Source: Candidatus Tectimicrobiota bacterium (GTDB lineage: Bacteria > Tectomicrobia > Entotheonellia > Entotheonellales > Entotheonellaceae). From it: a stretch of DNA of 64,000 bases. How positions within the stretch are numbered: position 1 is the first letter of the stretch; each line of letters starts with the position of its first letter. Below the pieces are notes generated by a model, which ran no database searches, had not been told where the DNA came from, and saw only the letters and a program-made list of their open reading frames with translations. The position numbers and the translations under genes are program-made. The stretch lies in NCBI GenBank assembly GCA_026005175.1, contig BPKO01000002.1, forward strand, positions 218,501 to 282,500, read 5' to 3'. This document shows positions 33,559-50,362 of this stretch, piece after piece.

Positions 33559-33587
33559 TTGACAGGCCTTTGTCCATGCCTTATTAT
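33559..33587 (+). promoter_or_regulatory. Strong sigma-70 promoter of copA-1
   Basis: TTGACA, exactly 17 bp, TATTAT. The -35 is perfect. The -10 overlaps the operator-like palindrome, and the start site would be near 33594, 32 bp before the ATG. Confidence 0.8.
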
Positions 33588-33603
33588 TTCGTTACACGAA
33601 ATA
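33585..33603 (+). promoter_or_regulatory. Operator-like palindrome at the copA-1 promoter
   Basis: TATTTCGT-TAC-ACGAAATA, perfect 8-bp arms, spans the end of the -10 and the expected start site, the classic place for a repressor. Its core TTCGT-N3-ACGAA recurs at the promoter of the YHS-MarR gene (47284-47296). Confidence 0.7.
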
Positions 33604-33625
33604 TTCGATTGAAGAAGGAGAGGCC

Positions 33626-36139
33626 ATGCTGCAGGAGTCCCTTAGCCATGCTAGTCCCCGCGCCGCGGCGGTGACCACGGCCGCCATTCCGGTCGTGGGC
33701 TTGCGCTGCGCCCACTGTGCTGCCCACCTCACCTTGGCCTTGCAAGCGCTGCCCGGGGTGCAGCAGGCGGTGGTCAACCCCACCACCGGCGTGGCCACCC
33801 TCACTTACGATCCTACCCGCGTGACGCTGGGCGACCTCTGCCAGCACCTTCGCGCCAGTGGCTACACGCCGGGCAGCGCCCGCGTGCGCTTGACCATCAA
33901 GGGCATGACCTGTGCTTCCTGCGTCAGCGCGGTGGAGCAGGCGCTGCGCCAGACCCCTGGGGTCATCGCCGCTACCGTCAACCCTGCCCTGGCCCAGGCC
34001 GAGGTGGAGTACCTGCCGAGCCTGGTCGACTTCGCCGGCCTCAAAAGCGCTGTGGCCGCCAGCGGCTATGAAGCGACGGAAGCCCCCCCGGCCAGCGACC
34101 TTGCCGTGAGCCAGGAAGACCTCGCGCGCCAGCAGGAGTACCGCACCCTGCTGCGCAAGTTCTGGTTTGCTGCCGCCACTTCGGTGCCGGTGATCGTGCT
34201 GAGTTACCCCGATCTGATTCCGGGACTGCGGGCGTGGCTGCCCCCGGGCAGTCTGGAGCGGCGCCTGGTGTGGGGCTTCCTGGGTATCCTGGTGCTGCCC
34301 GTGCTGCTGTGGTCGGGCTCGCAGTTCTACAGCGGCATGTGGGCTGCCCTCAAGCACCGCACTGCCAACATGCACACCCTTATCGCCCTGGGCATCTCGG
34401 CCGCTTACCTCTACTCGGCGGTGGCGGTGCTCTTCCCGCAGTGGTTTCCCGAGCAGGCCCTGGCCGAGGTATTTTGGGACGTCTCGGCGGTGGTGGTGGC
34501 CCTGGTGGTGCTGGGGATGGCCCTGGAAGTGAAGGCCAAGGGCAAAACCTCGGAGGCCATCAAAAAGCTCATCGGCCTGCAGGCCAAAACCGCCCGCGTG
34601 GTGCGCCAGGGGCAGGAAGTCGACCTGCCCGTGGAAGAAGTGCTGGTGGGCGACGTGGTGGTGGTGCGGCCGGGCGAAAAGATCCCGGTGGATGGCATCG
34701 TCCTTGAAGGCAGCAGCGCCGTAGACGAGTCAATGCTCACCGGCGAGTCGCTGCCGGTAGAAAAGCGCCCTGGCGACGAAGTCATCGGCGGCACCCTGAA
34801 CAAGACCGGCAGCTTTCGCTTCCGCGCCACCAAAGTCGGCAAAGATACGGCGCTGGCCAACATCATTCGCATGGTGCAGGACGCCCAAGGCTCAAAAGCG
34901 CCCATCCAGCGGGTGGTGGACGTGGTGGCCGGCTATTTCGTGCCGGCGGTGCTGATCCTCGCCGTCTTGGCCTTTGTCGCCTGGTACAACCTCGGCCCCG
35001 AGCCGCGCCTGGCCTACGCCACCGTCGTGCTGGTGACCACCCTGATCATCGCCTGCCCCTGCGCCCTGGGGCTGGCCACCCCGACGTCTCTCACCGTGGG
35101 CATCGGCAAGGCCGCCGAACACGGCATTCTCATTCGCTCCGGTGATGCCTTGCAGACGGCCAAGCGCCTGACGACCATCGTCCTAGACAAAACCGGCACC
35201 ATCACCCAAGGCAAGCCAGCCCTTACCGACGTGGTACCGGCGCCGGGGTGGGAGGCCGAGGCGGTGCTGCGCCTCGCCGCCTCCCTGGAGCGAGGTTCGG
35301 AGCACCCCCTGGGCGAGGCCATCGTGCAGGGGGCTCTAGAGCGCGGCCTTGCCCTGAAAGCGGCCACCGACTTTGCGGCCATCCCCGGCCACGGCGTCCG
35401 CGGCCAGGTGGGGGAGCACCAGGTGTTACTGGGCAATGCCAGGCTGATGCAGAAACACGGCATCGAGACCAGTCCCCTACTGGCCGACTGGGAGCGACTC
35501 GCCGCCGATGGCAAGACCCCGATGTTCGTGGCCGGAGATGGCCGGCTGGCCGGGCTGGTGGCGGTGGCCGACACCCTCAAGCCCGACTCCAAGGCGGCCA
35601 TCGCCGCCCTGCGCCACATGGGGCTGGAGGTCATCATGCTCACCGGCGACAACCGCCGCACCGCCGAGGCCATCGCCCGCCAGGCGGGCGTCGACCGGGT
35701 GCTGGCCGAGGTACTGCCGCGGGACAAGGCGCACGAAGTGCAGAAGCTGCAACTGGAAGGCAAGGTGGTGGCCATGGTGGGCGATGGCATCAACGATGCC
35801 CCGGCCCTAGCACAAGCCGACATCGGGATGGCCATTGGCACCGGCACCGACGTGGCCATCGAGGCCAGCGACATCACCCTCATCAAGGGCAGCCTCATGG
35901 GCGTGGTCATGGCCATCGAGATCAGCCGCGCCACCATGCGCAATGTCTACCAGAACCTCTTTGGCGCCTTTATTTACAACGCCCTGGGCATCCCGGTGGC
36001 CATGGGGCTGCTCTACCCCTTCTTTGGCACCCTGCTGTCGCCCCTGCTTGCCGCCGCTGCCATGGCCTTTAGCTCGGTGACCGTGGTGAGCAACGCCAAC
36101 CGTCTCCGCTCCTTCAAACCCAAAGGAGGAATAGCATGA
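33626..36139 (+). CDS. copA: Copper-exporting P1B-type ATPase (CopA-1)
   Basis: This 837-residue P1B ATPase has two N-terminal HMA domains, one with RCAHC and one with the standard GMTCASC, then eight TM helices with the CPC metal site ([13 protein letters not shown]), the phosphorylation motif DKTGT ([13 protein letters not shown]), the actuator TGES ([12 protein letters not shown]), HP motif SEHPLGEAI and [10 protein letters not shown]. These define a Cu(I) exporter of the inner membrane. It has its own strong promoter and palindrome. The stop overlaps the cupredoxin ATG (ATGA), so the two are coupled. Removal of cytoplasmic copper, or loading of exported cuproproteins, is the likely role. 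Confidence 0.93.
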
Positions 36140-36513
36140 CCCCTGATCGTGTGCTCGTTACCGTCTTTGGCCTCGGGCTGGTGGCCTTTATCGTCTGGTT
36201 CTTCTGGCTGAAGAAGACCCGCGGCACGCGCGCTGCGGTCACCCGCAGCGGCTATCAAGAAGCCATGATCCTGGTCAAAGGCGGCTACACCCCGGACGTG
36301 ATCGTGGTGCAGCACGGCAAGCCGGTGCGCTTGCACTTCCGGCGCGAGGAGACGGCCGCCTGTTCGGAAATGGTGCTGTTTCCGGACTTTAACAAGAGTG
36401 CCAAGCTGCCCACTGGCGAAGTGGTGGACATAGAACTGCTTCCCGAGAAGCCCGGGGAGTACGAATTTGCCTGCCAGATGGGCATGTTTCGCGGCAAGCT
36501 CGTGGTCGAGTAG
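36136..36513 (+). CDS. Membrane-anchored cupredoxin-like copper-binding protein
   Basis: This 125-residue protein has one N-terminal helix ([18 protein letters not shown]) that anchors a periplasmic cupredoxin-like domain. Candidate copper ligands are in [11 protein letters not shown] and in [14 protein letters not shown], matching the short Cupredoxin_1 family, in which Cys, Met and His cluster near the end. It overlaps copA by 4 bp. It probably receives Cu(I) from the ATPase or buffers periplasmic copper. Confidence 0.8.
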
Positions 36514-36527
36514 GAGGAGAAGGAGCC

Positions 36528-37193
36528 ATGGAGACTTCTGCACCGCCCGGAGGAGCTTGGGGACTCACCATCGTCATGGTCGTCATCGTCTCCTGGATCC
36601 TCTATCGCTACGTGGCGCCGCAGAGCTGGAAGGAGTGGACGCGCGCCGGGCTTATCCAGGCGTTTATCATTGCCCTCTATGCCGAGATGTACGGCTTTCC
36701 CCTGACCCTTTACCTGCTCAGCGGCTGGCTTGGTCTGGACATCCCTTGGTTGCACCAAAGCGGGCACCTTTGGGCCACCCTTTTTGGCTGGGGAGACCTG
36801 GGTGCCATGCTGGAGATGCTCGTCGGCTATACCCTGGTCTTTTTCGGCCTCTCCCTGCTCGTTGAGGGCTGGCGGGAAGTCTACCTGGCCACCCGGGAAG
36901 GGCGGTTGGCCACCACGGGCCTCTACGGGCTGGTGCGCCACCCGCAGTATACGGGCATCTTCCTGGCCATTGTGGGTCAGCTCGTGCACTGGCCCACGAT
37001 TCCCACCCTGGTGCTGTTCCCCCTCATCGTCTGGGCGTACTACCGGCTCGCCAGGCGCGAGGAACAGCAGCTGCTGGCCCGTTTCGGCGCTACGTACCTG
37101 GCTTATCAGCAGCGCGTGCCCATGTTCTTTCCCAGGCGCGGCCACTGGCAGCAGTTCCTGGCCCCAGGCAGGTACAGGGCCTTCGATGCCTGA
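36528..37193 (+). CDS. Isoprenylcysteine carboxyl methyltransferase-like membrane protein
   Basis: This 221-residue protein has about five TM helices and the ICMT/PEMT SAM-binding signature TTGLYGLVRHPQYTGIFL followed by RREEQQLLARFGATYLAY. In bacteria such enzymes methylate lipids or unknown small molecules. AGGAGGAGAAGGAG precedes ATG 36528. It is 14 bp after the cupredoxin, so it belongs to the copA operon; family members do occur in metal operons. The substrate is unknown. Confidence 0.82.
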   Translation: METSAPPGGAWGLTIVMVVIVSWILYRYVAPQSWKEWTRAGLIQAFIIALYAEMYGFPLTLYLLSGWLGLDIPWLHQSGHLWATLFGWGDLGAMLEMLVGYTLVFFGLSLLVEGWREVYLATREGRLATTGLYGLVRHPQYTGIFLAIVGQLVHWPTIPTLVLFPLIVWAYYRLARREEQQLLARFGATYLAYQQRVPMFFPRRGHWQQFLAPGRYRAFDA

Positions 37194-37232
37194 GGCGCAG
37201 CTGGACGGACGTGGTGGCCAAGGAGGGAAGAC

Positions 37233-38135
37233 ATGTTACCTGAAGTTCATCTTGGATGGCACTGTTGTGCTCCGGCGACCAATCCCGAGAATTACCGGCC
37301 CCTGGTGGGTGAGGCGCTGATCGATGAGCTCAAAGCCCTGGCCAAGGCGCTGGCCGGCGTGCGCATTTGCCAGATCAACGCCACCGCCGCCGGCGGTGGC
37401 GTGGCAGAACTGCTCGGCCGCCAGGTGCCGCTGCTGCGCGCCCTTGGGCTAAAAGTCGAGTGGCGCCTGATCCACGGGGATCCGGCCTTTTTTGCCCTCA
37501 CCAAGCGCTTGCACAATGCCTTGCAAGGCGCAGCCCTGGAGCTCACCGCGGCGCTCCAGGAGGCCTATCTGGCGCGCAACCGCACCTGCGCCGCCATGCT
37601 CGCCGAGCATTACGACGTTTACATGGTGCACGATCCCCAGCCGGCGGCGCTGCGTTACTTCGCGCCGCACTCGACAGGGCGCTGGATCTGGCGCTGTCAC
37701 ATCGACAGCTCTACGCCCAATCCCCAGGTCTGGGCATTTCTCAAACCCTACATCGAAGCCTACGACGCGGCCGTGTTCACCCTGCGGGAATTTTGCCCTC
37801 CGGATCTCCACGGCCCGCGGCTGGCGTTCATTCCCCCGGCGATCGACCCGCTGAGCACGAAGAACATGGCGCTGCCGCAGGAGCTCTGCCGGCAGGTGCT
37901 CGCCGACGCTGGCGTAGACCTCCGCCGGCCGCTGCTGTTGCAGGTGGCCCGCTTCGATCCCTGGAAGGACCCGCTGGGGGTAATTGCCGCTTATCGCCTG
38001 GTGAAGGCTCGCCGCCCTGAAGTGCAACTGGCGCTGGTAGGGGGCCATGGCCGGGGACGATCCAGAGGGCTGGACCATGCTGGAGACCATCAACCGCGAA
38101 GCGGCTTGTGACCCGGATATTTACGTGTTTACCAA
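37233..38135 (+). pseudogene. Truncated GT4 glycosyltransferase (trehalose synthase-like)
   Basis: The N-terminal 270 residues match trehalose synthase (TreT)-type GT4 enzymes: INATAAGGGVAELLGRQVPL, WRLIHGDPAFFALTKRLHNA, CHIDSSTPNP and ARFDPWKDP. The frame slips at the GGGGG at 38040-38044; removing one G continues as LVGAMAGDDPEGWTMLETIN and DPDIYVFTN. Homology then stops abruptly at about 38135 where the sequence becomes the end of a DUF5676-like gene. About a third of the enzyme, including the end of the nucleotide-sugar site, is missing. It looks non-functional or misassembled. Confidence 0.72.
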
Positions 38136-38246
38136 TACGGCGTCTATGCCGGGTTGGTGTTTACCCCTATTTACAACTTCTTTCACGCCCGCTGGGGAAG
38201 CCCTCGTATCGATGACACGACGCGCGCTTCTGCTGTCGGCCGTTGA
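38136..38246 (+). pseudogene. C-terminal remnant of a DUF5676-like membrane protein
   Basis: In frame, YGVYAGLVFTPIYNFFHARW continues to a stop at 38246. It resembles the end of the intact DUF5676-like gene at 38510 (CYAAVVFVPLYNFF) but has no start. It is fused directly to the broken glycosyltransferase, which points to a deletion or an assembly join. Confidence 0.55.
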
Positions 38247-38509
38247 AGGTTAGGTTGAGGCGTCTGGGTGCCACAGCCAGGAGCCTCCCTGAACGCCAGC
38301 CCTTGACGCACGGAGGACCCCTCGCCTCATTCTCCTGGGTGGTTTCTGGCTCGTGGCCTTGGGCTAGGGGCGTGAATGGACGACGGCAACGAGCGGGCTC
38401 CAAGCCGGCATCGGCCTGGGGGCCACTGCTCCAGTGGCGCATGGCGCCGATGCGAAGCGTATCTCTGGGGAGGAGACGTGGACAACGTGGGGCATGAGGA
38501 GGAACGCCG
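38247..38509. other. Non-coding-looking stretch between gene fragments
   Basis: I see no supportable gene. One frame shows a short hydrophobic scrap (RLILLGGFWLVALG, about 38326-38367) without a start, so this is probably more remnant DNA. The ribosome-binding site of the next gene is at its right end. Confidence 0.4.
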
Positions 38510-38788
38510 ATGGCGGGAAGGGTACGTCTACGTCCGGTGGCGCTGGCTCTGGGAGGCTTCTTGACCATTTCTTATCTGCTCGACGTGCTCCTTTGGGTGC
38601 TCTGGCCTGCCCTGGGCACCCAGAAGATCTGGGAAGTCTTGCTGCCGGGCTTACAGTGGCTGAGCCTGGGGCACTTCTTCCTGGGACTGGGCGAGAGTTT
38701 CCTGCTTGGGTGCTACGCCGCAGTGGTCTTCGTGCCGCTATACAACTTCTTCTGTGCCCGAGAAGCAAAAGACCCCTTGGAGGCTTAA
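38510..38788 (+). CDS. DUF5676-like two-helix membrane protein
   Basis: This 92-residue protein has two hydrophobic segments (ALALGGFLTISYLLDVLLWV and LGLGESFLLGCYAAVVFVPL) and the family-like ending LYNFF. ATG 38510 follows AGGAGGAA. DUF5676 proteins are small membrane proteins often next to copper genes; no function is established that I know of. A second, broken copy ends 260 bp upstream. Confidence 0.7.
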   Translation: MAGRVRLRPVALALGGFLTISYLLDVLLWVLWPALGTQKIWEVLLPGLQWLSLGHFFLGLGESFLLGCYAAVVFVPLYNFFCAREAKDPLEA

Positions 38789-38819
38789 CGAGGAGAGACG
38801 GAAGATACGGAGTATAAGC

Positions 38820-39104
38820 ATGCTCCTGGGTCTTCTCATCCTTGGGCTCTTGCTACCGCCTACGGTCCCCGTAGCCCGGGGAGATTCTAACGCCCGCACC
38901 ATCAACCTGTTTGCCGATGGACCACAACCACGGCGTCTCACCATTGCTGCTGGCACGGTGAAGAAGGGTATGCCCATGGGCTGTGAAGTCGTAGGGGTTA
39001 CGCGGAGCTGCCAGCTGCCGGCTCCGGCGCCACCACCTGGCCGTCAAGGAGCTGCCACACCCGGCGCTGCCGTGCCAGGCGACGTCCTGGGCTTCGGCTT
39101 CTGA
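38820..39104 (+). CDS. Exported protein fragment, possibly a truncated cupredoxin
   Basis: ATG 38820 has GGAG 7 bases upstream. The signal peptide LLGLLILGLLLPPTVPVARG is followed by PRRLTIAAGTVKKGMPMGC, which resembles the start of a plastocyanin-like domain (family phrase: R-L-T-I-x-A-G-T-V). From about 38995 the frame only reads antisense through another gene remnant, so the protein is probably cut off. Function is lost or unknown. Confidence 0.4.
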   Translation: MLLGLLILGLLLPPTVPVARGDSNARTINLFADGPQPRRLTIAAGTVKKGMPMGCEVVGVTRSCQLPAPAPPPGRQGAATPGAAVPGDVLGFGF

Positions 39105-39235
39105 GAGCGGCCCCCTGGCCACAGCGTCTTCGAGCAGCGCGTCCAGTGCATCGGCAGAGAGGACGCGAACACGGCGCACCAGCGGGCCAAAGTAAGCCGG
39201 GGCTCGTTGTGGATAGCGCAAAACGGCATTCTGCC
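38998..39235 (-). pseudogene. Internally deleted DUF3782-like (PD-D/ExK-type) gene remnant
   Basis: One frame reads APAYFGPLVRRVRVL and ALDALLEDAVARGPLSEAEA; a second, after AQDVAW, reads ARQRRVWQLLDGQVVAPEP and stops at 38998. Together they are the front and the very end of a family of coiled-coil/nuclease-like proteins common in thermophiles, with the middle missing. The recognition is from memory of the family and moderately sure. Confidence 0.45.
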
Positions 39236-39295
39236 GTCCCCATTGTACCGCGCCAAGTCCGGGGAACACAATCGCCGAGCGGGACGAGGTCCTGC

Positions 39296-40804
39296 TTACG
39301 CCTTCTCCCCACTTCGGTGAAGCCCGGCCGGGGAGGCCAGGGGGCGGCAGTCGGGGCAGTACTTCCCAAGCAGCGCGGCAGTGGCCGCCAACTCCGGCCC
39401 CAGCAGGGCCGCGAGGCGGCGCAGCATGGCCTGCGGGGCAATGGCGGCGCCACAGGCCTGGCAGCGCGCCGTGGCTTCCCTGTACACCACCTGCCGCCCC
39501 TGCGCCAGGCGGCCCAGGTCGGTGCGCCGCCGCAGCGCGATGGCGCCGGCCTCCGGGCAGCGGGGCAGGCACTGGCCACAGGCCACACAAAGGGTGGCAT
39601 CGAAGGAGAGCGTGACGCCCTGCGCTTGCTGCGCAAAGACCAAGGCGCCGGTGGGACAGCTCAGGGCACAGCGACCGCAGCCGGTGCACGCCGCCTGCCG
39701 TACCTCGATGACCCCTAGCGGCGAGGCGGCATGCTCGAGCACCAGGTCTGCCGGCGCCCCGTAGCGCGCCGCCAGGGCGGCAAGCACGCGGGCCGTGGCC
39801 CCCGCGGCAAAAGGTGCAACCAGGGGAAGCGGCGCCTCCCCGGCCGGCGGCGGCCGGTCGAGGGCCGCGCAGAGGCTAACCCGCTCGGCCGGGGCGCCAA
39901 GGGCCTGCAAGAAGGCCTGGCTGTACGCCACGCGCGCCGCGATCCGCTCCTCTTGACCGCGCCGGCATCCCTCCGCACAGGGCAGCACGCCCACGGCGCC
40001 GGCCCCCAGCAGCAGGGGCGCCAGCAGCCAGGCCGGCGGCGCCATGGCCACGCAGGGCAAGGCCACCGGCAGCCAGCCCGGGTGCCAGGCCGCCAGCGCG
40101 GGTGGCGCCTGCTGGCACGTAAAGACAAGGCCGCGCGGCCAGAGCGTGCCCCGCGCCGGGTCGAGCAGGGTGCGCACCTGCGCCTCGAGCTGCGCCGGGG
40201 TGGCGGCCGGATTGGTAATGGCGCCGCGCGGGCACGCGGTCACGCACAGGCCACAGGGCTCGCAGCGCGCCTTGTCGTAGCGCACGCGGCCGTCCTCCCA
40301 GGCCAGCGCCCCCTGCGGGCAGACTTGGACGCAGGCCTGGCAGCCCGCCTCGGCCGCACAGCGCTCGGGATCGATGCTGGGCGCGGCGCCGTACACCGGC
40401 AGCGACAGCCGCAGCAAGGAACGCCGGCTCAGCTGCGCCGACAGGTAAAGCTTGGCCTGCGCCGGCGTGCTGCCGGCAAACGCCCGCGCCCGCGCCACCG
40501 CTGCCGCCAGCAGCAGCGGCGCCCGCGCCCCGGCTCCCTCCAGGAGGACCACTTCCACCCCCAGGGCGTCGAGCCCGGCGGCGCGCGCCTGCGCTTGCAT
40601 CTCCGCCACGTCTTGCACCGGCGCGCACAGCCCGAGCACCAGGCGCTGCGGTGCCGCCGCCCGCAGCGGCGCCGCCATCTGCCGCGGCTGCCGGCACAGT
40701 CGCGGCACCACCTGCGCCACCACCTCGGCAAGGCCAGCCGCCAGGTCGCAGCACAGTCCCTCGGCAGCAGGGAGGTGATCACAGACGAGCACTGCCGTGC
40801 GCAT
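39296..40804 (-). CDS. Multi-cluster ferredoxin with MvhD-like domain, last gene of the molybdoenzyme operon
   Basis: This 502-residue protein has a ferredoxin pair at about residues 145-190 (C-x5-C-x2-C-x3-C in CAAEAGCQACVQVCP, and CEPCGLCVTACP), a central region resembling the MvhD/hydrogenase FeS subunit (LLLGAGAVGVLPCAEGCRRG), a second pair (CTGCGRCALSCP and CVACGQCLPRCP) and a terminal zinc-ribbon-like CQACG...YCPDC. ATG 40804 follows AAGGAG. It probably relays electrons between a soluble carrier and the membrane complex, like ArxB'/HdrA-associated proteins. It overlaps the TorD gene by 26 bp. Confidence 0.72.
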   Translation of the reverse strand: MRTAVLVCDHLPAAEGLCCDLAAGLAEVVAQVVPRLCRQPRQMAAPLRAAAPQRLVLGLCAPVQDVAEMQAQARAAGLDALGVEVVLLEGAGARAPLLLAAAVARARAFAGSTPAQAKLYLSAQLSRRSLLRLSLPVYGAAPSIDPERCAAEAGCQACVQVCPQGALAWEDGRVRYDKARCEPCGLCVTACPRGAITNPAATPAQLEAQVRTLLDPARGTLWPRGLVFTCQQAPPALAAWHPGWLPVALPCVAMAPPAWLLAPLLLGAGAVGVLPCAEGCRRGQEERIAARVAYSQAFLQALGAPAERVSLCAALDRPPPAGEAPLPLVAPFAAGATARVLAALAARYGAPADLVLEHAASPLGVIEVRQAACTGCGRCALSCPTGALVFAQQAQGVTLSFDATLCVACGQCLPRCPEAGAIALRRRTDLGRLAQGRQVVYREATARCQACGAAIAPQAMLRRLAALLGPELAATAALLGKYCPDCRPLASPAGLHRSGEKA

Positions 40805-41450
40805 GCTGTGCTCCTTGACGTTGTACGAGTTGCAGATAGTCGCCCTCATGGATGACAAAGGCCTCCGCTGCCGCGGCGACTCGGCCGTAAAAGCCCTCCC
40901 CGGCCGCGGCCTGCACCCGCCGCGCCCAGAGCGGGAGCCAGGAAAGCAGGTAAGGACCAAGAAAGGCGGCCTCTTCTGCCAGGGCCTGCCGCGCTGCGGC
41001 GACATCCCGCTCCTCCCAGGCCTGCGCCTCGCGCTGGCAGAGAAAAGCCATCGCTTCGAGCTGCACCGCGGCGTGGTCCGCGCTGCTGCCCGCGGTGGGC
41101 GCCAGGCCCAGCTGCGCGTAGCGGTGCAGCAGCTCGGCCAGCAACCGCCCCGTGGCTTCCCCCGGTACTGCCAGGTAGGCCGAGGCCTGCAGCGGGCAAG
41201 GGGCACCGCTGGCCGCAAACAACCCCTCGTAAGCCTCTGCCAGGACCGCGGCCGGCGGCGGCGCTTGCAGCCCCGAGGCGAGCCGCTGCCAGGCGCCGTA
41301 GAAGGCAAAGCACGCCAGCCCGCCAAAGGCCTGACTCGCCTCTTGCAGCGCTTGCAGCCGCTCCGCCACCGGAGGTAGCAGGGCAGTAGCAAAGACCCGG
41401 TAGAGCGCCTGGCGCAGGCGGGCCAGCTCGCCGGCCTCACAGGTGGCCAT
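40779..41450 (-). CDS. TorD-family chaperone of the second molybdoenzyme operon
   Basis: This 223-residue, all-helical, soluble protein has the TorD/DmsD fold signature: LRQALYRVFATALLPPV at the start, AYEGLFAASGAPCPLQASAY (equivalent to the YE..F...G.....P..S motif) and the AVQLEAMAFLCQREAQAW helix. Its ATG overlaps the stop of the next small gene (ATGA). It would protect the Tat-exported catalytic subunit encoded five genes upstream. Confidence 0.82.
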   Translation of the reverse strand: MATCEAGELARLRQALYRVFATALLPPVAERLQALQEASQAFGGLACFAFYGAWQRLASGLQAPPPAAVLAEAYEGLFAASGAPCPLQASAYLAVPGEATGRLLAELLHRYAQLGLAPTAGSSADHAAVQLEAMAFLCQREAQAWEERDVAAARQALAEEAAFLGPYLLSWLPLWARRVQAAAGEGFYGRVAAAAEAFVIHEGDYLQLVQRQGAQHAHGSARL

Positions 41451-41665
41451 CAGGCCTGCTCCCGCTCCGGCAGCAGCTCGTAGACCACCGCTGCCAGGAA
41501 GACCAGCATCACCCCGAGGATGAACAGCAGCGGCGCCAGGGGCAGCCGCGGGTTGCTGTACTCCGGCCCGCTGGGAATGCCCAGCGGTGCGGCGAGGAAG
41601 AAGTAGCTCACCGCCTGCAGGGCAAAGCCGCAAAGCACCATGAGAATGGCCAGCACGGTCCGCAT
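41450..41665 (-). CDS. Small two-helix membrane protein in the molybdoenzyme operon
   Basis: A 71-residue protein with two TM helices (VLAILMVLCGFALQAVSYFF and LAPLLFILGVMLVFLAAVVY). Both ends overlap neighbours by ATGA, so it is tightly coupled between the NrfD-like and TorD genes. It may be a small subunit that stabilises the membrane part. I do not recognise a family. Confidence 0.7.
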   Translation of the reverse strand: MRTVLAILMVLCGFALQAVSYFFLAAPLGIPSGPEYSNPRLPLAPLLFILGVMLVFLAAVVYELLPEREQA

Positions 41666-42960
41666 CAGCGCTTTCCTCCCTGCACCGCGGGCACCTCCAC
41701 GATGGGAAAGACCTTCACGAAGAGGGCGTAGAGGAAGGTTCCCAAGGCGAAGAGGCCCAAAATAATGCTGTACTCCACCCACGTCGGCGCGTACCAGCCC
41801 ACCCCGTAAGGCAGCAGCGCCCCGTGCGTCTGCGACGGCACCACGATGAGGTAGCGCTTGCCAATGGCCGCCACGTTGACCAGCAGGCCGCTCAACACCA
41901 GCAAGGGGATGCTGTAAGCGCGCAGCGCCACCTGCCCCACCAGCAGCAGCAAGGCCAGCACCAAGCTGCCCATCGACACCCAGTAGAGGGCGCTGTACTC
42001 GCCCACCAGCAGCGCCCGCGTGAGGGCCACCTCGTGGTGATGGCCGGCGTAAAGCGACGTCAGAAGCTCGACGGCGGTGAAGTAGAGGTAAATCACGATG
42101 AGCAGCAGAAGCAGCCGCCCCAGCCAGGCAAAGACCGCCGGCGTCAGCTCTTCCTGCAGACGCAAGACGCGGCGCAGGATGGCGGCCACGACAAGGAGCA
42201 GGCCGATGCCAGAGACCCCGGCCATGACCACAAAGCCCGGGGCCTGCAAGGCGCTGAACCAGCCCGGCCGCCCCACCTGCAGGCCAAAGACAAAGCCCAG
42301 GGTGGAGTGCGCCGTCACCAGCAGCGGCACGATGGCAATGGCCAGCCAGAAGCTGGTGCGGGCGTGCCGCTGGCGCTCGGCCGGAGTGTCGCGGTAGCCA
42401 GCCGCCCACAGACGGTGGAAGCCCTGCAGGCGGCTGGGAACCTGGGCACACAGGGCGGCATCGCGCCGGCCATCCAGGTAGAAGTACACCAGGCTGGCAA
42501 AGAGGTAGCCGGCGATAACCAGGGTGAAGGTGCCGAAAAAGGGCGACTGCGGCCGCGCGTAGACAAAGAGGTTGACAATGCCCCGCAGCGGCTGGCCCAG
42601 GTCGGGCAGGATCACCAGCCCGGCCAGCAGCAGGGCGATGATGGTCAGCAGCTCCGCCATGCGCGACACCGGCTTGAGCGCTTCCAGGTTGAGCAGGCGG
42701 ATGAGCGCCGCCATGGTGATGCCGGCAAAGCTGACGCCCACGAAGTAAATGTCAAACGTGATGTACAGCCCCCACGCCGCGCCGCGCATGGTTCCCAGGT
42801 CGCGCAGCCCGGTGACGATCAGCCCTTCAATGAGCTGCCGCAGGTAGGCATAAGCGCCCAAGGCGACAAGCGCCAGAAGCACCCCCGCCAGGGCGTACCA
42901 GGCGGGGGTGAAGCGGCCAAGGCCGTAAGGCAGCCGTTCGAGGCGTTCTTGCACCGCCAT
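41665..42960 (-). CDS. NrfD/PsrC-type membrane subunit
   Basis: This 431-residue protein has about ten TM helices. ITFDIYFVGVSFAGITMAAL, a run of hydrophobic helices, and HSTLGFVFGLQVGRPGW are typical of the quinone-interacting NrfD family. It follows the FeS subunit by 3 bp and overlaps the next gene. By analogy with PsrC it couples the periplasmic Mo/FeS subunits to the quinone pool. Confidence 0.87.
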   Translation of the reverse strand: MAVQERLERLPYGLGRFTPAWYALAGVLLALVALGAYAYLRQLIEGLIVTGLRDLGTMRGAAWGLYITFDIYFVGVSFAGITMAALIRLLNLEALKPVSRMAELLTIIALLLAGLVILPDLGQPLRGIVNLFVYARPQSPFFGTFTLVIAGYLFASLVYFYLDGRRDAALCAQVPSRLQGFHRLWAAGYRDTPAERQRHARTSFWLAIAIVPLLVTAHSTLGFVFGLQVGRPGWFSALQAPGFVVMAGVSGIGLLLVVAAILRRVLRLQEELTPAVFAWLGRLLLLLIVIYLYFTAVELLTSLYAGHHHEVALTRALLVGEYSALYWVSMGSLVLALLLLVGQVALRAYSIPLLVLSGLLVNVAAIGKRYLIVVPSQTHGALLPYGVGWYAPTWVEYSIILGLFALGTFLYALFVKVFPIVEVPAVQGGKR

Positions 42961-42963
42961 GGC

Positions 42964-43704
42964 TCAGATCCTCCCTTTGACGTGTTCGATCTGGCGCGCC
43001 TCTGCCCCCGGGGCATGGCCGCTGCCCACGTAGTGCACGCGCGGCTGCGTGTCCAGCTCTTCCAGGAGGCGGAAAGAGCGCTTCTCGCGCAGCAGGCGCG
43101 AGACGTTGCTGTCAGGGTCGTCGAGGTCGCCAAAGTGCAGGGCAAACAGGGGACAATTGGCAACGCAGGCCGGCGACAGGCCCTTCTCCACCCGGTGCAC
43201 GCAGAAGGTGCACTTCTCCATCACCCCTTTGAGGTGGCCGCCGCCGGCCACGTGGCGCTGCTCGGGCCCGTAGCGTCCCTCGAGGTCGGGATTTTTGTAG
43301 GGCGGGATGGCGCCGTTGGTGCGGGCGGTGAGCTCGGGGTCCTGCCAGTCAAGGTAGTAGTTCTTTTCTGGCGACTTCCAGTTGAAGCAGTTGACCCCAT
43401 AGGGGCAGGCCACCTCGCAGTAGCGGCAGCCGATGCAGCGCTTCCAGTCGGTGGCCACCAGGCCGTCGTCGCGCTTGTAGCGCGCCCCCACCGGGCAGAC
43501 CTTGGCGCAGGGCGGGTTGTCGCAGTGCATGCAAGGCCGCGGCATAAACCAGACGCGGGTGTTGGGGAACTCGCCTTCTTCGAAGCGAAAGACGTGCATC
43601 CAGAAGCTGCCCCGCGGCGTGTTGTTTTCGACTTTGCAGGCCTCGACGCAGGCACGGCAGCCGGTGCAGCGGTCGAGGTCGATCACCATGCCGTAGCGTG
43701 CCAT
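42964..43704 (-). CDS. Four-cluster ferredoxin subunit (PsrB/ArxB-like)
   Basis: This 246-residue protein has four Cys groups: CTGCRACVEACK, CMHCDNPPCAKVCP, CIGCRYCEVACP and CTFC with a late CVANCP. An insertion (DWQDPELTARTNGAIPPYKN) between groups three and four is usual for PsrB-like subunits. The C-terminus (LHFGDLDDPDSNVSRLL) resembles the PadC-like protein at 9971, showing the two complexes are relatives. There is no signal peptide; export with the Tat-signal catalytic subunit is likely. Confidence 0.87.
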   Translation of the reverse strand: MARYGMVIDLDRCTGCRACVEACKVENNTPRGSFWMHVFRFEEGEFPNTRVWFMPRPCMHCDNPPCAKVCPVGARYKRDDGLVATDWKRCIGCRYCEVACPYGVNCFNWKSPEKNYYLDWQDPELTARTNGAIPPYKNPDLEGRYGPEQRHVAGGGHLKGVMEKCTFCVHRVEKGLSPACVANCPLFALHFGDLDDPDSNVSRLLREKRSFRLLEELDTQPRVHYVGSGHAPGAEARQIEHVKGRI

Positions 43705-43713
43705 GGCGCCTCC

Positions 43714-46269
43714 TTACGCGCGGTAGACGCGCACTTTGACGTGGAAAGACTGGTCGGCGGTGTTGGCCACGTAGCCCTCGCCGGTAAAGAAGAGCTCGCT
43801 GGCCGCCGGCCCCTGCCCCTTGGCCCAGGGGTGCACCCACATGCCGTAGTGGTGCGGCATGCCCACCGTGTCGGGGCGGATGGCCTCGGTGTAGCGCGCT
43901 CTGACTTTGACCCGGCGCGTCTCGCCGGTAACGGCGTTGTGCGACTCCACCCACACCTCGTCGCCGTCGGCGATGCCGCGGGCGCGCGCAGTACGCGGGT
44001 TGATGTCCAGGCGCTGCTCCGGCGCCAGCTCCGCCAGCAAGGGGATGAAGCTACTGCGCGACTGCTTGAACTCGATGAGCTTGTAGCTGATCAGGTAGAG
44101 GTCGTACTGCGCGGGCGAGCCTTCCATGGTGGGCTGGCGCCAGGTGGGCAGCGGCGTGTAGTCGCGCCAGTAGATCTCCGCGGCCCCTTTGGCGCGCATG
44201 GTGTCGCGGTAGCGCAACAGCGACTCGCCGTAGAGGCGGTGGCGGATGCCGCCAAAGGGCGGCTCCTGGGCGTAGCCGTAGTACTTCTTGGCCGGAATCG
44301 ACCCTTTGACCCACACGCCGTGCTTCTCAAAGTAAGCAATACCCTCCTTGAGGCCTTGGCTCTTGGCCCAGCGGTCAAAGATGTCGCGTACCGCCGGCTT
44401 CTGGTCCAGGGGCAAAGCGTAAGGGCCCTTGAGCTTGAGAGCCTGGTTGAGGTGGTCGAGGTAACCGCCCTTGCCGTAGAGGAGCTCGGCCTTCTCGCAC
44501 AAGTCGAGGTAGATGTCGATCTCGCCGCGCGCCTGGTATAGCGGCGCCATGGGCGGCAAGCGCAAGGCCACGGCGTCGGTGTACTGGTCGGTGGCGCTGA
44601 GCGGCCCCTCGTACTTTTCCAGGGTGGCGGCAGGCAGCACCACGTCGGCAAACAGATCGGCGGTCTCCGAAAGCCAGGCGTCGATCACCACCACGAACTT
44701 GAACTTCTTGTAGCCCTCGATGATGTCGGGCTTGGAGCCAAAAGAAAGCACCGGGTTGGCCATGTGCACGATGGCCATCTCCGGCAGGGTGTCGACGCCG
44801 TACTTGGCGGGATCCTGCATCACCTTGGCCACCAGCGCCGAGTTGTTGCTGTTGATGGGGAAGAACTTGCTGTCCTTGAGGTAAATGTTGTACGGCGGGT
44901 CCTTGATCTCGATTTCGTCGAGCTTTTTGAAGTTCTCGTGCAGCTTCCAGGTAAAGTCGATGCGCTGTCCCCCCACCGCCTCGATGCTGCCCAGCAGCAT
45001 CATGAGCAGGAGCAAGGCGCGCGTCAGCTGGAAGCCCAGTTCTTGCTGCGCCACGTGGTAGGCCATGATGGCCACCGGGCGGTAGGGCAGGGGGATGCCG
45101 TCGACGACCACGGTGCTGCCCAGCATGGCATGCTCGATCAGGTCCTGCGCCAGCCAGTAAATGTGGTCGCTGGGCACGCCGCAGATGGAAGCCGCCCACT
45201 CGGGGGAGTACTGGGCGAGGTGCTCTTTGAGCACCTGGAAGGCGGGCTTGAGGATCTGGCCTTCATAGGTAAACGTGCCCTCCAGGGCCGGCTGCCCCTG
45301 CGGGGCGTCGTAGGGCTGGGGGGCGCCGCTGCCCGTGTCCCACACCTGCTCCTTGCCGTCGCGGCGCAGAAAGTAGCCGTCGGGTTGCACCAGGAAGGGG
45401 GCGTTGGTGTGCTTGCGCAGGTAGTCGCGGTCGATGGCGCCACGGCGCACCACCTCGGCGCACAGGGCCAAGGCCAGGGCGAGGTCGGTGGCGGGGCGAA
45501 TGGGCAGCCAGCGGTCGGCGAAGGGACCGGCGCCGCGCAGGCGCGGGTCGATGACGGCGATTTTCATGCCGCGCTCGCGGGCGGCGGTCATCTGCTGCGG
45601 CCAGGTGATCCAGCAGAGCTTGTTGCCGCCGGCACCGGTAAGGTTCCAGCCCCAGGCCAGCAAGTAGCGCGTGTGGCGAAAATCGGGGTGCAGCACTCCG
45701 TGCAGGCCGATGGTGTACTCGCAGGCGCGGTAGCCGGCATCGGAGCAGAAAGCGCCGTGGTGCAGCTTGGTGGCGCCGGTGGCCTTGACAAAGGCAGTGT
45801 CATAGAAAGCGCTGGCCTTGCTGCGGCCTTTCTGCCACACCAGCCGCCGCGGGTCGCGCGCGCGCACCTCGCGCAGCGTTTTCGCCACCAGGCTCAGGGC
45901 TTCGTCCCAGGAGGCTTGCCGCCACTGGCCGGGCACGCCTTTTTCGTTGGTGCGAATGAGCGGCGTTTTGAGGCGGTTGGGGTCGTAGACGGCCATGATT
46001 TGGGCCATGCCCTTGGGGCAGAGGGTGCCCAGGTTGCGGGGGTGGATGGGGTTGCCTTCGAGCTTTACCAGACGGCCGTTGACGCGGCGGGCCAGCATGC
46101 CGCAGTCCTGCTTGCCGATCCAGCAAGTCGTGGGTACCCACGCCTCGCCGGCCGCCTCTGCCGCCGGCGCGGGCGCCGCGGTGAGCGTTTCTAGCTTGCC
46201 GCCCAGAAGGCGGCTGGCCAGCAGCCCGCCGGCGGCGCCTTTGAGAAACGTGCGACGCGTGGTTTTCAT
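43714..46269 (-). CDS. Tat-exported molybdopterin oxidoreductase, unassigned Psr/Arx-like catalytic subunit
   Basis: This 851-residue protein has the Tat signal TTRRTFLKGAAGG. The FeS-binding region is C49-x2-G52-x3-C56 ... C84 (TTCWIGKQDCGMLA, then GTLCPKGMAQ): the second Cys of the normal CxxCxxxC is a Gly. HHGAFCSDAGY near residue 150 may contain the Mo-ligand Cys. The rest has family markers such as WDEALSLVAKTLRE and DVVLPAATLEKYEGPLSATD. Gene order (catalytic, FeS, NrfD, small, TorD, extra FeS) is like arx/psr operons. The substrate (sulfur, arsenic, or other oxyanion) is unknown. ATG 46269 follows GAGGAGGAG. Confidence 0.82.
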   Translation of the reverse strand: MKTTRRTFLKGAAGGLLASRLLGGKLETLTAAPAPAAEAAGEAWVPTTCWIGKQDCGMLARRVNGRLVKLEGNPIHPRNLGTLCPKGMAQIMAVYDPNRLKTPLIRTNEKGVPGQWRQASWDEALSLVAKTLREVRARDPRRLVWQKGRSKASAFYDTAFVKATGATKLHHGAFCSDAGYRACEYTIGLHGVLHPDFRHTRYLLAWGWNLTGAGGNKLCWITWPQQMTAARERGMKIAVIDPRLRGAGPFADRWLPIRPATDLALALALCAEVVRRGAIDRDYLRKHTNAPFLVQPDGYFLRRDGKEQVWDTGSGAPQPYDAPQGQPALEGTFTYEGQILKPAFQVLKEHLAQYSPEWAASICGVPSDHIYWLAQDLIEHAMLGSTVVVDGIPLPYRPVAIMAYHVAQQELGFQLTRALLLLMMLLGSIEAVGGQRIDFTWKLHENFKKLDEIEIKDPPYNIYLKDSKFFPINSNNSALVAKVMQDPAKYGVDTLPEMAIVHMANPVLSFGSKPDIIEGYKKFKFVVVIDAWLSETADLFADVVLPAATLEKYEGPLSATDQYTDAVALRLPPMAPLYQARGEIDIYLDLCEKAELLYGKGGYLDHLNQALKLKGPYALPLDQKPAVRDIFDRWAKSQGLKEGIAYFEKHGVWVKGSIPAKKYYGYAQEPPFGGIRHRLYGESLLRYRDTMRAKGAAEIYWRDYTPLPTWRQPTMEGSPAQYDLYLISYKLIEFKQSRSSFIPLLAELAPEQRLDINPRTARARGIADGDEVWVESHNAVTGETRRVKVRARYTEAIRPDTVGMPHHYGMWVHPWAKGQGPAASELFFTGEGYVANTADQSFHVKVRVYRA

Positions 46270-46386
46270 GGTCGTTGCTCCTCCTCGCTTGGGACGCGTG
46301 GCCACCGCGGGGTGGTGCAAGAAGAGTGCCAGGATCGCCGGCCCCACCCCTGGCGCCGGCGGCCGCCGCCTGGCCTTTGCCGGCGT

Positions 46387-46417
46387 GACACCTTGTCCGC
46401 TCGGGGGGCAAGGTGTC
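46387..46417. repeat. Inverted repeat in the divergent molybdoenzyme/YHS intergenic region
   Basis: GACACCTTG-N13-CAAGGTGTC, perfect 9-bp arms, 17 bp upstream of the YHS promoter -35 and 118 bp upstream of the molybdoenzyme start. It could be an operator for the minus-strand operon or a hairpin in its leader. Confidence 0.45.
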
Positions 46418-46434
46418 CACAGTGGCAAAAGGAG

Positions 46435-46463
46435 TGGACAGATGTCACTCCCCGACCTATACT
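46435..46463 (+). promoter_or_regulatory. Sigma-70 promoter of the YHS-thioredoxin genes
   Basis: TGGACA, exactly 17 bp, TATACT: one mismatch in each box. It lies 45 bp upstream of ATG 46508. Confidence 0.65.
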
Positions 46464-46475
46464 TCTGTATGCGAA
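46463..46475 (+). promoter_or_regulatory. Degenerate TTC-N7-GAA operator
   Basis: TTCTGTATGCGAA has the outer TTC/GAA, the CGAA half and the 13-bp length of TTCGT-N3-ACGAA and sits in the same place, straight after the -10. It matches 7 of 10 arm positions of the copA-1 site. Confidence 0.4.
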
Positions 46476-46507
46476 ACATTTTTTCAGCGAAGAAAAGGAA
46501 GCATGCC

Positions 46508-46675
46508 ATGGCAAAAGATCCGGTGTGCGGCATGGAGGTGGAAGAGGCCACGGCGGCGGCCACCGCGGTTTACGAGGGCAAGACGTATTACTTCTGCGCC
46601 GTGGGCTGCAAGCAGGCCTTTGAGCAAGCGCCGCAGAAGTACCTCGCCCAGAGCGAGGAGGCCGCGGGCCAATGA
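46508..46675 (+). CDS. Stand-alone YHS-domain metal-binding protein
   Basis: This 55-residue protein is just a YHS domain: [20 protein letters not shown], then YYFCAVGCKQAFEQAPQKYL. Conserved Cys residues in CGM and FCAVGC can bind copper or another soft metal. AAGGAAG precedes ATG 46508. It overlaps the thioredoxin gene by 4 bp (ATGA). The same domain is repeated at the N-terminus of the MarR-type regulator 640 bp downstream. Confidence 0.85.
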   Translation: MAKDPVCGMEVEEATAAATAVYEGKTYYFCAVGCKQAFEQAPQKYLAQSEEAAGQ

Positions 46676-47274
46676 GCGAAGCGACGCGCCCGCGGCGAGG
46701 CCTTGGCCGCCGCGGCTGGCAGCTGGTGGCCATGCTGGCGCTGTTGGCTGCCTACCTGGTGCTGCGGCAGCTGGCTGCCACGCCGCGGGCGCCAGCGCTG
46801 GCGCCTGCGGCCGCGGCGCGGGCGCCTTTCCCCGTGGACTTTACCCTGCCCGACTTGCAGGGCAACCTCGTGCGCCTGGCCGACACGCGCGGCCGGGTGG
46901 TGCTCCTTAACTTCTGGGCCACCTGGTGCCCGCCGTGCCGGGCGGAGATGCCCGCGCTCGAGGCCCTGCATCGCGACTACCAGAAGCGGGGGCTGACCAT
47001 CCTGGCCATTTCCAGCGACGTGGAAGGCGAAAAGGCGGTGGCGCCTTTTGTGCGCCGCTACGGGCTGACGTTTACGGTGCTGCTCGACCCGCGCAACACC
47101 CTGGGCGAGCGCCTGCAGGTGCGCGGCCTTCCCACCACGTACCTCCTCGACAAGGCCGGGCGCATCGCCGCTTACGAGGTGGGAATCAGGGACTGGAACG
47201 GCTCCAAAATGCGCCGCTTCCTTGAGGCGCTGCTGGCCGAGGAAGCGCCCCTTGACGGGGCATCTGATTCGTGA
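46672..47274 (+). CDS. TlpA/ResA-like membrane-anchored thioredoxin
   Basis: This 200-residue protein has one N-terminal anchor helix (LVAMLALLAAYLVLRQLA) and a periplasmic thioredoxin domain with the active site WCPPC in LLNFWATWCPPCRAEMPAL and the cis-Pro region VRGLPTTYLLDKAG. It is a thiol-disulfide reductase, for example for apocytochrome c or copper-site cysteines. It is coupled to the YHS gene; the next promoter lies at its 3' end. Confidence 0.88.
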   Translation: MSEATRPRRGLGRRGWQLVAMLALLAAYLVLRQLAATPRAPALAPAAAARAPFPVDFTLPDLQGNLVRLADTRGRVVLLNFWATWCPPCRAEMPALEALHRDYQKRGLTILAISSDVEGEKAVAPFVRRYGLTFTVLLDPRNTLGERLQVRGLPTTYLLDKAGRIAAYEVGIRDWNGSKMRRFLEALLAEEAPLDGASDS

Positions 47275-47280
47275 TATAAA
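47252..47280 (+). promoter_or_regulatory. Sigma-70 promoter of the YHS-MarR and copA-2 operon
   Basis: TTGACG, exactly 17 bp, TATAAA. It overlaps the end of the thioredoxin gene. A half-site TTCGTGA also lies between the two boxes (47268-47274). Confidence 0.75.
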
Positions 47281-47283
47281 AAG

Positions 47284-47296
47284 TTCGTGAAACGAA
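47284..47296 (+). promoter_or_regulatory. TTCGT-N3-ACGAA operator
   Basis: TTCGT-GAA-ACGAA, perfect 5-bp arms, covers the expected start site 3 bp after the -10. The core and position match the copA-1 palindrome. It lies just before the YHS-MarR gene, suggesting autoregulation. Confidence 0.65.
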
Positions 47297-47313: not shown

Positions 47314-47934
47314 GTGCGCGATCCGGTGTGTGGCATGGAGGTGGTGCCGGCGCAGGCGGCGGCGCAGGCGCAGTACGAAGGAGAGACGTACTACTTTTGC
47401 GCCCGCGCCTGCAAGGCGCTGTTCGACAAGGACCCGGCGCGCTTCCTCCACCCCCTGGCGGCGTTTCCCGCCCACGCCCGCGCCCTTTACGCCGCCCTGC
47501 GCGCCCTGAGCCAGGCGGTCTACGGGGCGCCTGCCGGCCAGGCGCTGGGCGAGGCGGAGTGGGAGGCGCTGCGGGTGCTGGGCGAGCGGGGGGAGTGCCG
47601 CATGCGCGAGCTGGCCGCCGCCTGCGGCGTGGCCCTCAGCACTGCGACCGGCCTCGTCGACCGGCTGGTGGCCAAAGGGCTGGTGCAGCGGCGCCACGGC
47701 GAAAGCGACCGCCGCCTGGTGCTGGTGCGGCTGACCGGCCGCGGCCGCCTGCTGTACCAGGAGCGCCTCGAAGCCGACATGCGCCTGGTGCTGGGCATGC
47801 TGCAGCCGCTTGGCGCCCGGGAGCAGCGCCAGCTGGTGGCGCTGCTGGAAAAAATCGTGCGCGCCTTGCCGCAAGCGGCAGGGCCAGGGAGGAGCGACGA
47901 TGCAGAGCACGCAACCCACGACGCGGCGTCTTGA
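47314..47934 (+). CDS. YHS-MarR fusion: probable metal-responsive transcriptional repressor
   Basis: In this 206-residue protein residues 1-45 are a YHS domain ([33 protein letters not shown]) with three Cys, and residues 50-190 a MarR winged helix ([40 protein letters not shown] with the recognition helix, and the wing [16 protein letters not shown]). Start GTG 47314 has AGGAGG 8 bases upstream; GTG 47287 would lie inside the operator. It overlaps copA-2 by 35 bp. The sensor domain plus the neighbouring ATPase suggest it senses copper or a similar metal and binds the TTCGT-N3-ACGAA sites. This is inference. Confidence 0.8.
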
Positions 47935-50362
47935 CTTGCCCATTGGCGGCATGCGCTGCGCGTCCTGCGCCGCCCACATCGAAAAGGCCTTGCAGGCCCT
48001 GCCCGGGGTGCAGGCAGCGCAGGTCAACTTCGCCACGCAGCGGGCCACCGTGCAGTTTGACCCCACGGCGGTGAGCGTGGCGCAGCTTGCCGAGGCGATT
48101 GCCGCGCTGGGCTACCAGGTGGCCGGCGAGCAAGTTACCATCCCCATTGGCGGCATGCGCTGCGCGTCCTGCGCCGCCCACATCGAGCGCGCCTTGCGCG
48201 GCGTCGAGGGGGTGATCGCGGCCGCGGTCAACTTTGGCACGCAGACGGCCACCGTGACCTACCTGCCGGGAGTGGTGGAAGTGGCCGCCTTGCGCCGCGC
48301 CATTGCCGAGGCAGGCTATGAGCCTCTTGAAGTCGCCGAATCCGAAGCCGGCTTAGACCGCGAGCAGCAGGCGCGCGCCGCCGAGATCCGCACTCTGAAG
48401 CGCAAGTTCCTCACCAGCGTCGCCCTCACCTTCCCCATCTTCCTGGGCGCCCTGGGCGCTTACGTTTCCTGGGTGCCGCGCTGGCTGCAGAGCCCCTGGC
48501 TGCAGCTGCTGCTGGCCACCCCGGTGCAGTTCTGGGTGGGCTTCCCGTTTTACCAGGGCTTCTGGCGGGCCCTGAAGCACAAGACCGCGGACATGAACAC
48601 CCTGATCGCCATTGGCACCTCGGCGGCTTACGCTTACAGCCTGGCGGTGACCCTGGCGCCGGGGCTCTTTGCGCGCCTGGGACTGGGCACGCACGTTTAC
48701 TACGACACGGCGGCCATCATCATCACCCTCATCATTCTGGGCCGGCTGCTCGAGGCACGGGCGCGCGGCCAGACCTCGGCCGCCATCCGCAAGCTCATGG
48801 GCCTGCGCGCCAAGACGGCGCGCGTGCTGCGCGACGGGCAGGAAGTGGACCTCCCCGTGGAAGCGGTGCAGATTGGCGACTTGGTGCGGGTGCGGCCAGG
48901 GGAGAAGATCCCGGTGGACGGCGTCATCGTCGAGGGCCACTCGGCCATTGACGAGTCGATGCTCACGGGCGAAAGCCTGCCGGTGGACAAGGGGCCGGGC
49001 GACGAGGTCTTTGGCGCCACCCTCAACAAAACGGGCAGCTTTACGTTGCGCGCCACGCGCGTGGGCAAGGAAACGGTGCTGGCGCAAATTATTAAGCTGG
49101 TGGAAGAGGCGCAGGGCTCCAAAGCCCCCATCCAGCGCCTGGCCGACTATGTGGCCAGCATCTTCGTGCCGGCGGTGCTGGCCATCGCCGTCGTCACCTT
49201 TGGTGTGTGGGCGCTCTTTGGGCCGCCGCCGGCCCTTACGTTTGCCCTGCTCAACTTCGTCGCCGTGCTCATCATCGCCTGCCCCTGCGCCCTGGGGCTG
49301 GCCACCCCCACGGCGATCATGGTGGGCACCGGCAAGGGGGCCGAGCACGGGGTGCTGTTTCGAAATGCCGCCAGCCTGGAGCGGGCGCACAAGCTGCAGG
49401 CGATCATTTTTGACAAGACCGGCACCTTGACGCAGGGCAAGCCGGCGCTAACCGACGTCGTGCCCCACAACGGCTTTACCGCCGAGGAGGTGCTGCGCCT
49501 GGCTGCCGCCGCCGAGCGCGGCTCGGAGCACCCCCTGGGCGAGGCGGTGGTCGAAGCCGCCAAGGCGCAGGGCCTGGCGCTTGCAGAAGCCCAGGACTTT
49601 GCCGCCCTCCCCGGGCAGGGCCTCCGCGCCCGGGTGGACGCGCACACGGTGCTGGTGGGCAGCGAGCGGCTGCTGCGCGAGGCGCAGGTGCCGCTGGGCA
49701 AGCTGGAAGAAGCGGCGCAACGGCTGGCCGAGGAAGGCAAAACGCCGGTGTACGTGGCTGTCGACGGCCGCGCGGCCGGCCTGCTGGCCATCGCCGACAC
49801 CCTTAAGCCCTACGCCCGCGAGGCGGTGCGGGCGCTGCGCGCCATGGGGTTGGAGGTGCTGATGCTCACCGGGGACAACCGCCGCACCGCGGAAGCCATC
49901 GGCCGCCAGCTGGGGCTCGACCGCGTGCTGGCCGAGGTCTTGCCCCAGGACAAGACCAACCAGGTCAAGCGGTTGCAAGCCGAGGGCAAGCTGGTGGGTA
50001 TGGTGGGCGACGGCATCAACGACGCCCCGGCGCTGGCCCAGGCCGACGTGGGGATTGCCATCGGCACCGGTACCGACATCGCCATGGAAGCGGCCGACAT
50101 CACGCTGGTGAGCGGCGACGTGCGCGGCGTGGTGACCGCCATGCAGCTGTCGCGGCGCACCATGCGGGTGATCAAGCAGAATCTTTTCTGGGCGTTTATT
50201 TACAACATCCTGGGCATCCCCATCGCTGCTGGGGTGCTCTATCCCGTAGCCGGCTTGCTGCTCAACCCGGCGATTGCCGCCGCTGCCATGGCCATGAGCT
50301 CGGTGTCGGTGGTGAGCAACTCCCTGCGCCTGCGCCGCTTCCGGCCGCAGCTGCCGCAGTAA
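47900..50362 (+). CDS. copA: Copper-exporting P1B-type ATPase (CopA-2)
   Basis: This 820-residue protein has two N-terminal HMA domains, both [12 protein letters not shown], then the P1B core: TGES ([12 protein letters not shown]), CPC ([13 protein letters not shown]), DKTGT ([13 protein letters not shown]), SEHPLGEAV and [10 protein letters not shown]. It is clearly a paralogue of CopA-1, but its first HMA has the standard CASC where CopA-1 has CAHC. ATG 47900 follows AGGGAGGAG inside the regulator gene, so translation is coupled. The two pumps may serve export and enzyme metallation respectively. Confidence 0.93.

Follow-up and report, generated by a model that had tools for sequence, protein, structure and literature searches.

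Archaeal CopR is a one-component regulator that combines a helix-turn-helix (HTH) with a TRASH/YHS-type metal domain and is encoded next to copA. Its HTH is of the Lrp type, and it occurs in Sulfolobus as well as in Pyrococcus. CopR of P. furiosus uses the motif TTNNCAWWWTGNNAA and acts as an activator upstream of the transcription factor B recognition element (BRE) (PMC7830388). Here we analysed a 64,000-nucleotide stretch of Candidatus Tectimicrobiota bacterium (assembly GCA_026005175.1, contig BPKO01000002.1, positions 218,501 to 282,500; hereafter the window), in which a gene for a fusion of a YHS domain with a MarR winged helix (YHS-MarR) stands next to copA-2, and putative operators of the TTCG-N5-CGAA type lie at the promoters of copA-1, of YHS-MarR/copA-2 and of a YHS-thioredoxin operon. 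YHS-MarR shares with CopR the one-component build and the place beside copA. However, CopR has an N-terminal HTH and a C-terminal TRASH domain, whereas the fusion places its YHS domain at the N-terminus and combines it with a MarR winged helix, and its putative TTCG-N5-CGAA site lies at a position that suggests repression. The HTH of YHS-MarR is of the MarR type and not of the Lrp/AsnC type, and by this comparison the protein parallels CopR in outline without being a member of that family, its regulatory sign being probably opposite.

MarR family regulators bind palindromes of 16-20 bp, often at their own promoter. AdcR and ZitR resemble YHS-MarR in using a MarR fold in metal homeostasis but are zinc-dependent. 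Their metal sites lie within the MarR fold and not in an added domain. E. coli MarR, BifR and EpsRAc are MarR-family proteins reported to respond to copper; they differ from YHS-MarR in that the accessible part of that source mentions no YHS domain in them and does not name copA as a target (PMC10458429). YHS domains themselves are common in copper proteins, and clear sensing roles are few. One such role is that of the adenylyl cyclase of M. phlei, which responds specifically to Cu2+ and whose fused YHS domain carries an Asp and three Cys, as in YHS-MarR, proposed as Cu2+ ligands; there the domain controls an enzyme and not DNA binding (PMC4626032).

Paired dyads at three promoters

The initial annotation had proposed that the copA-1 and copA-2 promoters have a TTCGT-N3-ACGAA palindrome in common, and we confirmed both copies in the sequence (Table 1). 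Its judgement that the promoter boxes are good at all three sites also held, each promoter having a 17-bp spacer. The further claim that the operators sit at the same place just after the -10 was correct to within about 4 nt, but the positions are not identical: the core starts 1 nt past the last -10 base at copA-1 and 4 nt past it at copA-2, and overlaps the last base at YHS-thioredoxin. Since the dyads begin between the last -10 base and four bases beyond it, a bound protein would cover the transcription start. The third site, also present at its stated position, had been given as TTC-N7-CGAA and called decayed; it actually reads TTC-N6-CGAA, and it is probably not a decayed copy, since a motif trained outside the window scores TTCTGTATGCGAA at least as high as the copA-2 site.

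At 3/3 promoters a weaker second dyad was found exactly 16 bp from the primary one, downstream at copA-1 and YHS-thioredoxin and upstream at copA-2. Compared with TTCG-N5-CGAA, the pairs carry one (copA-1), two (copA-2) and three (YHS-thioredoxin) mismatches of 16. The observed pair score was matched by 0/20000 shuffles at copA-1, and by fractions of 5e-5 at copA-2 and 2.5e-4 at YHS-thioredoxin. When all spacings from 13 to 23 bp were tried, 16 bp was the best at each of the three promoters, and this pairing suggests that two dimers may bind per promoter.

The outside-trained motif was a 17-bp weight matrix (four upstream bases plus the core) made from ten sites, namely those of the marR-tolC operons described below and one from another marR promoter (L032). 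Over both strands of the window, about 128,000 positions, its first six positions were copA-1, YHS-thioredoxin and copA-2 on both strands, and column-permuted matrices equalled the top-three result in 1/1500 trials. In the 4-Mb genome as a whole, copA-1 was the highest-ranking match to a longer profile of the outside sites. Independent of the window core in this comparison were the flanking bases, the positions of the sites at marR and tolC, and the choice of loci by protein.

The initial annotation had suggested a genome scan for copies beside metal genes. The 3.99-Mb genome contains three copies of the exact palindrome TTCGTNNNACGAA (TTCGT-N3-ACGAA), against two of a reversed-pattern control, so that the raw count is uninformative, the motif is not rare, and its placement is the unlikely part: two of the three copies lie just past a -10, one at each copA operon, and the other lies inside a sugar-transferase open reading frame (ORF). 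For TTCG-N5-CGAA there are 25 genomic sites, of which 16 were inspected; 14 of these lie in codon-periodic coding DNA, and the promoter sites are those of copA-1 and copA-2 only. This motif is much rarer in the genome than its reversed control (119 sites), probably owing to codon and CpG-related composition.

The YHS-MarR protein and its MarR-domain relatives

In YHS-MarR, the YHS domain spans residues 2-46 (PF04945, 54.9 bits against a cut-off of 30.3) and the MarR winged helix residues of about 80-136 (PF01047, 52.3 bits against 24.6). The YHS domain retains D3, C6, C29 and C33, that is, the Asp plus three-Cys set proposed for copper binding. A single-sequence fold prediction reached a predicted local distance difference test (pLDDT) score of 40 and was too poor for use. 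No second fusion was identified by peptide-pattern or YHS-to-MarR DNA-pattern scans of 84,980 species genomes, the DNA pattern recovering the window's own gene, nor by tblastn in 386 genomes, nor in plasmids or viral contigs; a fusion whose linker or domain order differs strongly would escape these scans. No publication describing a fusion of this type was found in the literature that was searched.

MarR proteins from elsewhere were gathered only by protein similarity to the winged helix of YHS-MarR. The nearest domains (L060-L063 and L085), from hosts of another phylum than the window, probably acidobacterial, showed 36-44% identity (best 9e-21). TTCG-N5-CGAA stands at the marR start in 5/5 of this group and also before the adjacent tolC-side gene in 4/5, TolC having been recognised from sequence in L037/L061 with no family search used. 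The chance of finding the motif within 260 bp is about 0.6-2% in each of four loci, which are related, so that the chances cannot simply be multiplied. Most tolC-side sites read TTCG-N5-CGAA-NN-ATTCG, with ATTCG at +16, identical in pattern to copA-1 (TTCGTTACACGAAATATTCG). Among the other fetched MarR loci, just under thirty, the exact site was found at the gene start only in L032. L011 and L041, which are from other lineages, have near-dyads just upstream of the marR start that are paired at exactly 16 bp (TTCGAATCTTGAA-ATA-TTCAGAGATCGAA in L011), and the paired layout may be widespread within this MarR subgroup. Nothing relevant was found in the literature on TTCG/CGAA MarR operators; the sites of the five marR-tolC loci apparently represent a kind of MarR operator at an efflux gene that has not been described before.

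When the MarR protein of L062 was compared with the window genome, YHS-MarR was the best match (6e-19), and the next two scored 1.4e-6 and 2.9e-5. YHS-MarR and 4/5 relatives have the recognition helix ALS[ST][AT]TG[LVI]VD in common. YHS-MarR is the candidate binder because a similar MarR group carries the same dyads and best matches it within the genome. The proposal of the initial annotation that one regulator, with YHS-MarR as the candidate, serves all three promoters is thus supported at the sequence level by the dyads of the relatives, the recovery of the sites by the outside motif and this match.

A proposed copper regulon and its alternatives

We propose that the three promoters would make up a small regulon that responds to copper. 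YHS-MarR, as a homodimeric repressor, would bind the TTCG-N5-CGAA dyad over the transcription start, a second dimer would probably occupy the weaker dyad at a distance of 16 bp, and RNA polymerase would be blocked at the copA-1-cupredoxin, YHS-TlpA/ResA-like and YHS-MarR-copA-2 operons, the last by negative autoregulation. Copper (perhaps Cu or Ag) would bind to the Asp and the three Cys in the YHS domain at the N-terminus, upon which the MarR dimer would change shape and release the DNA, and both exporters, the YHS protein and the thiol-redox protein would be produced. Repression is suggested by the operator position, and copper by the target genes and the YHS ligands. We consider it likely that an autoregulated, copper-released YHS-MarR repressor runs the three promoters in this way. 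If so, YHS-MarR with a defined operator and three targets would be a case of a metal domain joined to a general repressor, and a new copper sensor parallel to CopR; it would also allow YHS-driven allostery to be tested directly and provide the operator code of a MarR subgroup whose genes lie beside efflux genes in unrelated bacteria as well. Whether the fusion of YHS and MarR made a sensor that took over a ready-made paired TTCG-N5-CGAA operator for copper export in a CsoR-less lineage is evenly balanced. The genome encodes two further heavy-metal P-type ATPases (C13:92574-94715 and C6:46874-48667) that lack an upstream operator, so the proposed regulon excludes some such pumps.

Several observations weigh against this regulon. 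The fusion is seen in a single genome, and its conservation is therefore not assessable. The window's phylum is represented by five genomes, the window genome included; none of the four others has an operator at copA, and the palindrome copies there fall inside genes and were taken as chance. The initial annotation had named lack of the palindrome at copA in relatives as grounds for rejection, and such a lack is literally what these four genomes show; it does not refute the regulon, since YHS-MarR is absent from all four, though each has copA, and operator conservation at copA cannot be followed by descent. No such operator was present either in the stretch read around the stand-alone YHS gene of a same-class genome (L006). 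The motif results also have a weaker side. When the 13-bp core was used alone and symmetrised, the top rank went to a coding site at 18984, with the three promoters directly behind it. With the full 25-position profile, copA-1 was the sole genomic place under E = 10, at a genome-wide E of 0.64, while copA-2 and YHS-thioredoxin were at chance level in the window; an equal score was found inside an enoyl-CoA-hydratase-like gene of another genome of the phylum (G003), which was taken as chance, so the copA-1 score is not significant alone. Moreover, the outside sites were recognised through the window's core, which is therefore not independent, and the L032 training site was added after it had been seen. 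The tree joins YHS-MarR to the marR-tolC group weakly, in a group of eight (SH-like approximate likelihood ratio test, SH-aLRT, 71; ultrafast bootstrap, UFBoot, 75), and the MarR proteins of that group have no YHS domain and are encoded next to a TolC-type efflux gene, not next to copA or other copper genes.

The operators might be real and shared but bound by another MarR-like protein or a non-MarR factor, with YHS-MarR acting elsewhere. Besides YHS-MarR, the genome has two MarR-type matches (C10 and C11), and dyads of this kind could be recognised by several branches of the MarR family. The operator-bearing group, however, matches YHS-MarR far better than either of these, and the stretches fetched around their two genes contained no TTCG-N5-CGAA. 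Among non-MarR factors, CsoR (PF02583) was found in 0/5 phylum genomes with positive controls detected, the window genome being 77% complete. MerR/CueR copper activators use a 19-20-bp spacer with the operator between the -35 and -10. In the window each primary dyad is located at the -10 end or beyond it, and the 17-bp spacers argue against an activator of this type. We therefore regard another regulator as distinctly improbable.

More room is left for YHS-MarR binding these sites in response to an effector other than copper, which could be another metal (Zn, Ag), an oxidant of thiols or, as for other members of the MarR family, an aromatic compound. The YHS genes stand beside a ResA/TlpA-like thiol oxidoreductase gene, metal binding by the window YHS domain is a prediction, and MarR proteins respond to numerous ligands, oxidants and metals (PMC10458429). 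Both exporters, on the other hand, are copper-type P1B ATPases, one of them shares its operon with a cupredoxin gene, and the Cu2+-specific response of the M. phlei YHS domain provides a precedent (PMC4626032), leaving a different effector a rather unlikely alternative. If the shared palindromes were chance in AT-rich promoter DNA there would be no regulon at all, and both the raw count of TTCGTNNNACGAA and the chance copies inside genes of the relatives would agree with this. The placement at the copA promoters, the 16-bp pairing at all three and the recovery by the outside motif speak so strongly the other way that we consider chance very improbable.

Features and neighbouring genes

The features of the three operons are collected in Table 1. 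The YHS-MarR/copA-2 promoter was read by eye and was missed by the promoter scan, which detects the other two.

Table 1. Promoters, genes and putative operator dyads of the three operons (positions in the window)
Feature	Position	Strand	Description
copA-1 promoter	33559..33587	+	-35 TTGACA 33559-33564, 17-bp spacer, -10 TATTAT 33582-33587; promoter scan, 11/12 consensus matches
Putative primary operator dyad at copA-1	33588..33600		TTCGTTACACGAA; core of 19-bp palindrome TATTTCGTTACACGAAATA 33585-33603
Putative secondary dyad at copA-1	33604..33616		TTCGATTGAAGAA; exactly +16 bp
copA-1	33626..36139	+	copper-type P1B ATPase, two HMA domains; Pfam; TIGR01511 and TIGR01525 above cut-off
Cupredoxin-domain protein	36136..36513	+	PF13473; overlaps copA-1 stop, same operon
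YHS-thioredoxin promoter	46435..46463	+	TGGACA, 17 bp, TATACT; promoter scan, 10/12 matches
Putative operator at YHS-thioredoxin	46463..46475		TTCTGTATGCGAA; one core mismatch
Putative secondary dyad at YHS-thioredoxin	46479..46491		TTTTTTCAGCGAA; +16 bp
Stand-alone YHS-domain protein, 55 aa	46508..46675	+	PF04945
ResA/TlpA-like thiol-disulfide oxidoreductase	46672..47274	+	'thioredoxin' of the initial annotation; overlaps YHS stop
YHS-MarR/copA-2 promoter	47252..47280	+	TTGACG 47252-47257, 17 bp, TATAAA 47275-47280; over end of TlpA-like ORF
Putative secondary dyad at YHS-MarR/copA-2	47268..47280		TTCGTGATATAAA; -16 bp, overlaps -10
Putative primary operator dyad at YHS-MarR/copA-2	47284..47296		TTCGTGAAACGAA; own promoter of proposed regulator
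YHS-MarR fusion, proposed regulator, 206 aa	47314..47934	+	GTG start after AGGAGG; PF04945 and PF01047
copA-2, copper-type P1B ATPase	47900..50362	+	start overlaps YHS-MarR end; above curated cut-offs

Divergent from the YHS-thioredoxin operon, the minus strand at 41665-46269 carries molybdopterin oxidoreductase, iron-sulfur (FeS) and NrfD/DsrP-like membrane genes, whose top NCBIfam matches (PhsA, ArrB and DsrP) are all under the cut-offs. At YHS-MarR itself, an in-frame GTG lies at 47287, inside the copA-2 operator and 27 nt before the preferred GTG at 47314, and is a possible alternative start.

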